In this document: positions 1 to 60,962 of the stretch, in pieces
How the letters are laid out: every line of letters starts with the position of its first letter
How positions within the stretch are numbered: the stretch's first letter is position 1
Assembly: GCA_027050775.1 (NCBI GenBank)
Contig: JALUBH010000007.1
Coordinates: 1 to 64,000, forward strand
From: Campylobacteraceae bacterium
GTDB taxonomy: Bacteria; Campylobacterota; Campylobacteria; Campylobacterales; Sulfurospirillaceae
Direction: 5' to 3'
Length of the DNA stretch: 64,000 bases
The notes under the pieces: model-generated
Seen by the model: only the letters and a program-made list of their open reading frames with translations
Database searches by the model: none
What the model was told of the DNA's origin: nothing
Translations under genes and position numbers: made by a program

Positions 1-284
1 AAACAATATTCATGCTTTTAAAGAACAAAACTAAATTTGATGAAAATTTAGCTTATGGTGTTTCTAAATGAAACTTTTAAATCTATGTTTTTTAGTTAGG
101 TTTCTTTATAGTTGACTCCTTTTTTATTTTATTGTCATCTTTTCTAGGAGCAAAGCCCCTAAAAAATTCACACGCTACTAAAGCTTCACCTGTCGGTGAG
201 AAATGCTTTTGTTGCTGAAATTTTAAAATAAAAAAGTGAAATAATTGTGAAGCTATTGAACTTCTTGTAAAAGGTATAGTTTTT
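1..284. other. Left-edge intergenic region
   Basis: No convincing gene is visible here. The stretch is AT-rich and lies downstream of the minus-strand operon that ends at 285. Its only clear structure is the two-hairpin repeat at 145-201, listed separately. The longest ATG-started frame (from position 68) codes for only about 15 residues and has no homology that I recognise. A gene ending to the left of the window could have its terminator here, but no hairpin with a T-tract stands out. Confidence 0.6.
145..201 (+). repeat. Two-hairpin intergenic repeat, copy A
   Basis: Hairpin 1 is AGGAGC-AAA-GCCCCT at 146-160 (one A.C mismatch). A linker containing ATTC follows, then ACTAAAGCTTC, then hairpin 2, TCACC-TGTC-GGTGA at 186-199, followed by GAAA. 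The same order of parts occurs at 35025-35085 (reverse strand) and 60883-60942. The stems differ in sequence between copies but still pair. This copy lies between the 3' end of the small cytochrome gene and the window edge. Confidence 0.6.
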
Positions 285-34993: not shown

Positions 34994-34999
34994 TATAAT
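34994..34999 (+). promoter_or_regulatory. Candidate glmM -10 box
   Basis: AGGTATAATC has TATAAT at 34994-34999. A transcript from about 35006 would carry an approximately 94-base leader that contains both hairpins of repeat copy B before the glmM AAAGGAG site. Confidence 0.55.
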
Positions 35000-35024: not shown

Positions 35025-35085
35025 CACTTCTCGCCAAAGGCGAAGCTTTAGTGAGAGGAATCTTTCAGGGGTTTTACCCCTAAAA
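35025..35085 (-). repeat. Two-hairpin intergenic repeat, copy B, in the glmM leader
   Basis: Read on the minus strand it gives hairpin 1 AGGGGT-AAA-ACCCCT (35081-35067, perfect), a GATTCCTCTC linker, ACTAAAGCTTC, then hairpin 2 TCGCC-TTT-GGCGA (35043-35031). The order, the loop AAA and the 11-base core match copies A and C, while stem sequences differ with pairing kept. Here the unit lies in the 5' leader of glmM in reverse orientation, immediately before AAAAAAGGAG. Confidence 0.65.
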
Positions 35086-35099
35086 AAGGAGAAATAAAA

Positions 35100-36443
35100 A
35101 TGCAAAAACTCTTTGGAACAGATGGCGTCAGAGGAAGAGCCGGCAAAAAATTAAATGCCGTAACAGCTATGCGTCTAGCGATGGCGGCTGGTATATACTT
35201 TAGAAAAAATTCTATTACAAATAAATTTCTCATAGGAAAAGATACAAGAAGAAGTGGCTACATGATAGAAAATGCCATAGTTTCAGGATTAACTGCTGTT
35301 GGATATGATGTCAGACAAATCGGTCCTATGCCGACTCCTGCCATCTCATTTTTGACTGAAGACATGAGGTGTGATGCCGGCATAATGATAAGTGCTTCAC
35401 ACAACCCGTATTTTGACAATGGTATTAAATTTTTTGACTCATTTGGAAATAAGCTAGATGAAAGTGCTGAAGCCAAAATTGAAGAGATATACCATAATGA
35501 AGAGCTGATAGAAGAAAATCAAAAGATAGAATTCAGCATAGGCAGATCAAAAAGAGTAGATGATGTCATAGGAAGATACATAGTGCACATCAAGAATTCG
35601 TTTCCAAAAAATCTCACTCTAAAAGGCAAAAGAGTTGTGCTAGATACTGCAAATGGCGCTGCATATAAAGTCGCTCCTACGATTTTTACCGAATTGGGAG
35701 CTGATGTAGTTGTTATAAATGACAAACCAAATGGAAGCAATATAAACCTAAACTGTGGAGCCATGCACCCCGAGATTTTAGGTGAAGAGGTTAGAAAACT
35801 AAGAGCCGATGTTGGATTTGCATTTGATGGTGATGCAGACAGGTTGGTTGTAGTAGATGAGCACGGAAATGTCATAGATGGAGATAAGCTTCTAGGCAAA
35901 CTAGCCACTTACCTCAACACACAAAATCGCCTAAAAGGTTGTGCGATGTGTGCTACTGTGATGAGCAACAAAGCACTTGAGGACTATCTTGGTGAAAACG
36001 AAGTTTCCTTGCTCAGATCAAATGTAGGAGACAAATATGTGCTTGAAATTCTCTCTAAAAAAGGCTTAAACTTTGGCGGAGAACAGAGTGGTCACATCAT
36101 ACTTTCAGATTATGTAAAAACAGGTGATGCACTCATATCTTCACTCGCCGTTATGGCATGTTTTTTAAGAAGCAATGAACCCATAAGTAAACTTTTTAAT
36201 CCATTTGAACTATATCCTCAACTTCAAAAAAATCTTTCAGTCATAAACAAGATTCCACTAAATAACATAAGCGGCTATGAAGAGTTTGTGAAAAAGATAG
36301 AAAAAGATGGCATAAGGGTACTCATCAGGTACTCAGGTACAGAAAATTTACTAAGAATTTTACTTGAGGGGAAAGATGAAAAAATATTAGAAAAACATAT
36401 GAGTGAAATTTACAGTTTCTTAAAGAAAACTCTAAATGACTAA
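35100..36443 (+). CDS. glmM: Phosphoglucosamine mutase
   Basis: A 447-residue enzyme that interconverts glucosamine-6-phosphate and glucosamine-1-phosphate for UDP-GlcNAc synthesis. The phosphoserine loop is [12 protein letters not shown] (about residues 98-109), the metal-binding loop FDGDADRLV is near 240, the sugar-binding loop GGEQSGHII near 325, and [12 protein letters not shown] binds phosphate near the end. It starts behind AAAGGAG and overlaps lspA by 8 bases. Its leader carries the two-hairpin repeat. Confidence 0.97.
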
Positions 36444-37851: not shown

Positions 37852-37927
37852 GGTCGCGTAGCTCAGTTGGTAGAGCACTACCTTGACATGGTAGTGGTCG
37901 TTGGTTCAAGTCCAATCGTGGCCACCA
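37852..37927 (+). tRNA. tRNA-Val (GAC)
   Basis: A 76-base cloverleaf. The acceptor GGTCGCG pairs with CGTGGCC (with G.T pairs), the anticodon stem CTACC/GGTAG holds the loop TTGACAT with anticodon GAC, and the T arm is GTTGG-TTCAAGT-CCAAT. CCA is encoded at the 3' end. It stands alone between panE and thrS. Confidence 0.95.
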
Positions 37928-37969
37928 TATTACTGTTCTCTCGGAGTTTGAGAGTTCAAAAGGATTAAA

Positions 37970-39787
37970 ATGCAAAATGAAGTTATAGCCTATAGAGATG
38001 GCGAAACACTTCTTGACACACAAACTGCTGCTTCACAAGATTCAACTAATTTCAAAAAAGTTTTATTTAACAATTCAGACGATGCGCTAGAGGTCATAAG
38101 GCACTCAACTGCTCATATGATGGCTCAAGCTATAAAAGAGTTGTATCCTGATGCCAAGTTTTTTGTGGGACCTGTCATAGAAGATGGTTTTTACTACGAT
38201 TTTCGCGTAAGTGAGAAGATTAGCGATAGTGATTTAAAAGCGATAGAAAAAAAGATGCAAGAGATTGCAAAGAGAAAACTACCTATAGAAAAAAGTAGTG
38301 GCACGAGACAAGAGGCTGTAGAACACTTTAGCGATGATGACCTAAAGCAAGAGGTACTATTGCGTATCCCCGAGGGTGAAGTATCTACATATAAACAGGG
38401 AGATTTTGAAGATCTTTGTCGTGGTCCTCATGTGCCAAACACAAGATATCTAAGATTTTTTAAACTCACAAGAGTGGCCGGCGCATATCTGGGTGGCGAT
38501 GAAAAACGAGAGATGCTTACTCGTATCTACGGCACAGCTTTTGCAGACAAGCAGAGCCTAAGAGATTATGTCACTATGATAGAAGAGGCAAAAAAGAGAG
38601 ACCATAGAAAATTAGGAACTGAACTAAAACTATTTACTTTTGACGAAGAGGTAGGAGCAGGTCTTCCTATCTGGCTTCCAAATGGTGCAAGAATGAGAAG
38701 CAGACTTGAACATTTGCTTTTTAGAGCACACCGCCTAAGAGGATATCAGCCCGTTCGTGGTCCCGAGATACTCAAAAGCGATGCATGGAGAGTAAGCGGG
38801 CACTACGATAACTATGGTGAAAACATGTACTTTACAACCATAGACGATACAGAGTATGGTATAAAGCCCATGAACTGCCTAGGACATATCAAAGTTTTTC
38901 AAAATGAAGTCAGAAGTTACAGAGACCTTCCTTTGAAATTTTTTGAGTATGGAGTTGTACATAGACACGAAATGAGTGGAGTACTTCACGGGCTTTTTAG
39001 GGTTCGCGAATTTACTCAAGATGATGCACATATATTTTGTACGCCTGATCAGATAAAAGAGAATGTTTTAGAGATTTTAGATTTTGTCGATACTCTTATG
39101 AAAGCTTTTGATTTTAATTATGAGATGGAAATATCCACAAAACCGCAAAAAGCCATAGGCGAAGATGCCTACTGGGAAGCTGCCACAAAAGGCTTGATGG
39201 ATGCACTCGATGGAAATGGCATAAAGTACGGTATAGACGAGGGTGGCGGAGCATTTTACGGTCCAAAAATTGATATAAAGATAACAGATGCGTTAAAGCG
39301 AAAATGGCAATGTGGTACCATACAGGTCGATTTTAATCTACCTGAAAGATTTGACTTGGCCTATGTAGATGCTAACAATGAACACACTAGACCAGTCATG
39401 CTTCATCGTGCGATTTTGGGTTCTTTTGAGAGATTTATAGGCATACTTATAGAGCATACTGCTGGAGAGTTACCATTTTTTATAGCTCCTACACAAGCTA
39501 TAATCGTACCTATATCTGAAGCTCATCACGCATATGCCCAAACACTATTTAAAAGACTTTTAGATGAAGGTATAGACGCGGAGATTTCCGCTAAAAATGA
39601 GAGTTTAAATAAACGAATTAGAAATGCTGAAAAAATGAGAGTTCCGATGATTTTAGTAGTTGGTGATGAAGAAGTTCAAAACCAAAGTGTTGCTTTAAGA
39701 GATAGAAGAGAAAGAAAACAGTATAATCTAAGCGTAGAGGAATTAATAACAAAAATGAAGGAGAAACTTAGTGAGGTACACTTTTGA
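37970..39787 (+). CDS. thrS: Threonine--tRNA ligase
   Basis: A 605-residue class II synthetase. Zinc and active-site marks are [17 protein letters not shown], the motif 2 region [20 protein letters not shown], and motif 3 [17 protein letters not shown]. The editing domain [14 protein letters not shown] is near residues 45-60. It is about 37 residues shorter than E. coli ThrRS because the N-terminal TGS domain is missing or vestigial, as is common in Campylobacterota. The gene ends in a four-base overlap with infC. Confidence 0.96.
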
Positions 39788-60869: not shown

Positions 60870-60882
60870 CTTAACTGTCTCA

Positions 60883-60942
60883 AATCTAATGAACAAAGTT
60901 CATCAGATTTTCAGTCACTAAAGCTTCGACTTAAAGTCGAGA
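60883..60942 (+). repeat. Two-hairpin intergenic repeat, copy C, between tRNA genes
   Basis: Hairpin 1 AATCTAATGAAC-AAA-GTTCATCAGATT (60883-60909; one A.C mismatch) is followed by a TTTTCAGTC linker, ACTAAAGCTTC and hairpin 2 TCGAC-TTAAA-GTCGA (60926-60940) then GAT. The layout and the 11-base core match copies A and B. The unit lies between tRNA-Arg and tRNA-Leu, so it would be part of the tRNA precursor if co-transcribed. Confidence 0.65.
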
Positions 60943-60962
60943 TTTTATCTTATTATTGTTGT

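Follow-up and report, generated by a model that had tools for sequence, protein, structure and literature searches.

A probably mobile repeat of about 75 bp in Campylobacterota that brings a ribosome-binding site to start codons

Descriptions of short mobile repeats usually place them between genes or near gene 3' ends; the family reported here sits on start codons. In its working, the closest described system is BOX of Streptococcus pneumoniae, which, in the part of its description drawn on here, is short and modular, folds as RNA, can repeat its internal modules and exceeds 100 copies per genome. It also resembles our element in that insertions are polymorphic, genes transcribed together with a copy are probably affected, and some copies contain a reading frame (PMC3049150). 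The Rickettsia palindromic elements are likewise palindromic and enter genes, including those for RNase P RNA and tmRNA (PMC2229807). The GTAG and CGTC REPs, reported also in Sulfurovum sp. NBC37-1, consist of short hairpins that show paired changes, are plausibly transcribed and have a patchy distribution over genomes, as does the family here (PMC3733652).

Each of these systems differs from the element in ways that bear on its biology. BOX has terminal inverted repeats and target duplications, whereas our element has neither at the one locus, hemB/argF, described below; conversely, our element has its Shine-Dalgarno sequence at a constant position and adjoins RTG, an anchoring to start codons that does not appear in that same part of the BOX description (PMC3049150). 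BOX belongs to Streptococcus and the element to Campylobacterota, and the two are set apart by description, not by sequence. Rickettsia palindromic elements measure 105-146 bp and are fused in frame inside proteins (PMC2229807), whereas the element is about 75 bp long and lies upstream of start codons; the CGTC/RPE terminal tag occurs in only 3 of 148 element copies. REPs are single hairpins of 20-40 bp tagged GTAG or CGTC (PMC3733652), whereas the element lies at gene 5' ends and has, in addition to its two hairpins, an invariant core and a Shine-Dalgarno sequence.

The window analysed is a stretch of 64,000 nucleotides from a Campylobacteraceae genome, in which an earlier note had described three copies of a two-hairpin repeat. 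All three are there, with the positions, layout and stem sequences it gave, and R2, a covariance model whose 54 diverse source copies come from many genomes and include window copy 2, scores copies 2, 1 and 3 at 84.1, 51.9 and 48.9 bits, with 11.9 bits for the next-best place in the 64 kb. The limits originally drawn were too narrow, each copy spanning about 75 nt, and the strand was backwards: the element runs in the direction of the downstream gene, on the opposite strand. Read in gene sense, a unit consists of TTC, hairpin H2 (five variable pairs closed by an AAA or GNNA loop), the core AGCTTTAGTGAGAGGAA, hairpin H1' (12 + 3 + 12 nt), GGAGA, a spacer of 6-10 nt and, usually, a start codon. 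Of 148 strict copies, 115 have exactly 27 nt between the core and GGAG. The whole genome contains an exact 11-mer of the core 10 times and its reversed control once; for the 8-mer centre, CTAAAGCT, the figures are 179 and 28, so the pattern is not a product of chance.

Copy 2 is a complete type A copy that occupies the glmM leader up to the start codon (35027..35099, + strand; R2 84.1 bits at 35027-35092, R1 94.7 bits). Its H2 hairpin, TCGCC / AAA / GGCGA (35031..35043, +), has a stem that is hypervariable across the family. The conserved core AGCTTTAGTGAGAGGAA (35044..35060, +) is the reverse complement of the core previously read as ACTAAAGCTTC, together with the linker. H1' (35061..35087, +), identified by its spacing and pairs, runs at its 3' foot straight into the Shine-Dalgarno GGAG, and the element-borne GGAGA (35088..35092, +) is followed by glmM itself (35100..36443, +), whose start codon adjoins the copy. 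Upstream lies a -10-like box, TATAAT (34994..34999, +), which a comparison of the leaders in G000, G002, G005, G006, G007 and G008 finds both with and without the element; because this box is conserved regardless of the element, the element probably lies within the transcribed glmM leader. Copy 1 (127..203, - strand) is of type B: GGAATT is replaced by GTGAATT and the Shine-Dalgarno sequence by GATGACA, and no start codon adjoins it. Copy 3 (60870..60944, -) is diverged, and its 3' end meets the 3' end of tRNA-Arg(tct) in antisense, with the junction AAGTGG. The placement of copies in the glmM leader and between tRNA genes had been described correctly.

The idea that selection acts on the paired structure, also raised in that note, is strongly supported by the double-sided changes and by the pairing relative to slid registers. 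The share of paired cells over 54 diverse sequences is 94.8%, whereas slid registers reach 46-60%; 13 of 17 pairs have changed on both sides. Doubly changed cells number 223 versus 59.4 +/- 6.7 in shuffles, which puts the stems far above shuffled sequence, with the caveat that the copies share ancestry and covariation probabilities are therefore not fully independent. In hairpin 1, the supposed A.C mismatches are G.U wobbles in the correct strand. Template-switch correction can match both arms of a palindrome without selection, and pairing of stem changes in this way, in imperfect palindromes during replication, would fit perfect hypervariable stems. Such a process predicts Watson-Crick pairs without strand preference, however, whereas the non-Watson-Crick pairs of H1' in the gene-sense strand are G.U in 84 cases and A.C in 14; the 12-3-12 length and the core are constant as well, and we regard this origin of the paired changes as very improbable.

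The same asymmetry decides between forms of the structure. In a wider, redundant set of copies the H1' counts are 124 G.U and 27 A.C. A cruciform, offered earlier as an alternative to RNA, is not supported, since G.U exceeds A.C by 84 to 14 in one strand only, and the selected form is therefore single-stranded rather than mainly a duplex cruciform. The working form is a single-stranded nucleic acid of the gene-sense strand, most likely RNA; the G.U excess also fits single-stranded DNA of that strand. Leaders bearing the element are predicted to fold at -24.1 kcal/mol, versus -16.8 for shuffled leaders, and despite this stronger folding the predicted probability that GGAG is unpaired is 0.69, versus 0.44. 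An alternative fold, the minimum-energy fold of the glmM copy, pairs UCUC with GAGA and AAAG with CUUU; it was rejected by eye, as copies with GNNA tetraloops do not keep this pairing. Two GGA motifs around the hairpin brought CsrA into consideration as a candidate binding protein.

How widespread is the family? The earlier note had looked to further copies in the genome and its relatives, and there are many more. In the source genome R1 gives 84 matches at E <= 1 and 56 at E <= 0.01; it matches all 10 genomes of the genus, with 16-81 matches in each of nine relatives, 0-53 per genome in the family's other genera and patchy occurrence outside it. R2 matches 43 of 298 genomes sampled across Campylobacterota, in 15 of 58 genera. 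When GTDB was scanned with an exact 20-mer, the matches listed were all Campylobacterota by title, including Sulfurimonas, Sulfurovum, Sulfurospirillum and Nitratifractor, except for one entry titled only 'bacterium'. Among the collections searched, the family is thus found only in Campylobacterota, the GTDB part of this statement referring to the matches listed with that one exception. Several subfamilies can be told apart: type A has AAAGGAGA or AAAAGGGGAC, another form has a GAGC/GCTC hairpin, and type B has the two replacements seen in copy 1 and mostly lacks an adjoining start codon. An 18-mer search of IMG/VR gave four matches of at most 22.7 bits in which the element layout is absent, and the plasmid and phage collections searched gave zero. 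Viral spread was rejected, no viral, phage or plasmid copy having been found in these collections.

The statement that no named family shares the core holds as well: Rfam 15 yields no match above gathering threshold, and a search of the open-access literature found no description of the family, which we provisionally take to be new to the literature. The candidate freshwater-2 RNA (RF02980) was rejected, with one copy at 21.8 bits against a threshold of 49.9 bits and no match at 17 other loci scanned; the weak match covers H2, the ribosome-binding site and the ATG. A SECIS_3 match below threshold was also seen (32.3 bits, E 0.0023, L116 3960-4018, - strand). The models R1 and R2 describe an RNA family that might be taken into curation.

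Close relatives differ in whether a site is filled. In the glmM leader of the window's genus, four genomes are filled and at least four empty. At the hemB/argF locus in genus g3, which is Sulfurospirillum-like by its genes, eight genomes are filled and others empty; in an empty relative the flanks are 92-94% identical to those of a filled genome and 76 bp are cleanly absent. Comparison of filled and empty alleles at hemB/argF showed no target-site duplication and no terminal inverted repeats, two loci in all having been compared cleanly. In the same genus the element lies in a variable hairpin of the RNase P RNA gene (RF00010, 258 bits; for example genome G024, L339 664-1069), with eight genomes filled and at least six empty. 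The hairpin of G034 and G022 holds a shorter, different insert, perhaps a remnant. The element is thus insertion-polymorphic, short, non-autonomous and multicopy, as MITEs are, but at hemB/argF it lacks the terminal inverted repeats and target duplication of a MITE. Part of the argF and rnpB patterns could reflect old insertions that were later lost or that recombined with empty alleles.

Two of the four filled glmM leaders contain two or more tandem front units. In G007 (L229), several front halves, each H2 plus core, stand in tandem before a single H1' and Shine-Dalgarno sequence, which indicates an element that is modular and internally expanding. In G008 (L219), a much longer hairpin ending TGCCCATAAA / TTTATGGGCA takes the place of H1'.

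Taken together, we consider it likely that the family is a non-autonomous mobile repeat of about 75 bp that brings its own ribosome-binding site to start codons in Campylobacterota and is sometimes retained as a functional leader. Why start codons? Among source-genome copies, 39 of 79 end within about 1 base of the start codon of an open frame in sense orientation, and none do so in antisense. ATG is followed by A at 32 of 34 gene starts of this kind. Other start codons in the window, a small background sample chosen mechanically, show it in 14 of 30 cases. Junctions with RNA genes (16S, rnpB and antisense tRNA ends) also adjoin RTG, reading ATGG or GTGG: in Sulfurospirillum arcachonense one copy lies immediately 5' of 16S rRNA, and window copy 3 and a neighbouring copy adjoin tRNA 3' ends in antisense. 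Copies share one orientation, and an RTG(A/G), in most cases a start codon, almost always follows directly. Both this orientation and this position would be explained by a fixed RTG(A/G) target. Most type B copies lack an adjacent start codon, which shows that the RTG rule is not universal.

On landing at a start codon, the mobile repeat would become the 5' leader of the gene, and its Shine-Dalgarno sequence would replace the displaced ribosome-binding site, so that the insertion is tolerated. Insertions within genes would be purged by selection, leaving those at start codons, with RNA genes that offer a tolerant helix as the exception. Selection may then retain some copies, the one at argF among them, as structured leaders that keep the ribosome-binding site accessible. 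The result is a natural system in which one portable leader and ribosome-binding site are common to tens of unrelated genes. With filled and empty alleles in close relatives, the effect of the element on expression can be tested directly.

The argF leader provides the clearest case of retention. In g3 this copy diverges by 1-14% between genomes. Divergence at the fourfold sites of argF is about 50-70% in most of the same pairs; two close-relative pairs differ less, and G034 was left out of this count for a frame difference. We infer that the copy is under purifying selection; paralogue copying is unlikely to account for its conservation because g3 genomes hold one or two copies of the element. 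In the window's genome argF also bears the element, as a tandem array (C20:245703-245943), so the same gene carries it in two genera. Could the family then be a vertically inherited cis-regulatory RNA, such as a riboswitch or a protein-binding or temperature-sensing leader, that controls downstream translation? The strong conservation at argF speaks for this, as do the gene-sense orientation, the fixed Shine-Dalgarno spacing and the covariation of stems around an invariant core. However, the 34 downstream genes of the source genome are diverse housekeeping genes without a common pathway (among them, named from translations, glmM, gcvH, nadC, aroC, guaA, leuA, argF, clpB and response regulators), a diversity that argues against a single-ligand switch. 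Sites are cleanly empty in close relatives, copies lie in rnpB, next to 16S and tRNA genes and in tandem arrays, and Rfam holds no match; a purely vertical regulatory RNA therefore appears unlikely.

Some copies can also be read as protein. Under this alternative the element is an upstream frame of 27-28 codons that is translated into a leader peptide and coupled to the gene where the two overlap in ATGA: 36 frames cross the core and stop at such an overlap (for example MKLYRASARALVARNFCGIHFRKKGTIK), and upstream ATGs favour two open frames, with 77 and 56 against 37. Yet most of 199 copies have no such frame, the subfamilies use two different frames, the core is conserved at every codon position, and the overlap is a consequence of ATGA adjoining the element. 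We give the leader peptide little credence.

Mobility raises the question of the enzyme, which is presumably provided in trans and would be a start-codon-adjacent inserter. A structure confined to one strand, a fixed flanking motif and the lack of target duplication resemble IS200/IS605-type insertion, and single-stranded DNA would favour the G.T wobble too. These features are compatible with a REP-type palindrome moved as single-stranded DNA by a RAYT (TnpA-REP) transposase, and Y1 transposases, many of them RAYT-like in length, occur in 28 of 41 relatives. Against this, no element flanks the Y1 loci examined, a subset from several genomes in which the sole strong element match (L305) lies upstream of a different gene about 800 bp away; in several element-rich genomes, such as G021 with its 49 copies, no Y1 gene was found. 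Of 148 copies, only 31 have GTAG at the foot of the hairpin and 3 have CGTC, and REPs lie mostly near gene 3' ends (PMC3733652), whereas the elements lie at 5' starts. On balance, movement by RAYT seems quite unlikely. Returning to the mobile repeat served in trans, we propose only tentatively that its insertion machinery recognises RTG(A/G) and that what it carries is an entire translation-initiation leader, made up of a structured RNA and a Shine-Dalgarno sequence, such that each jump would rewire the translation of a gene without breaking it. Movement might perhaps proceed via an RNA intermediate, because the conserved feature is the single-strand structure of the transcribed strand.

Two further observations were made along the way. 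At G000:C20:172300-175500 (L317), three identical units of a 300-nt direct repeat with AGTACCTGACCCC-like motifs lie next to a gene for a Y1 transposase; this repeat is perhaps the true REP of that enzyme. Within the window, Rfam places an HPnc0260 antisense RNA (64 bits, over threshold) at 37889-38069 on the - strand, overlapping tRNA-Val on the opposite strand.
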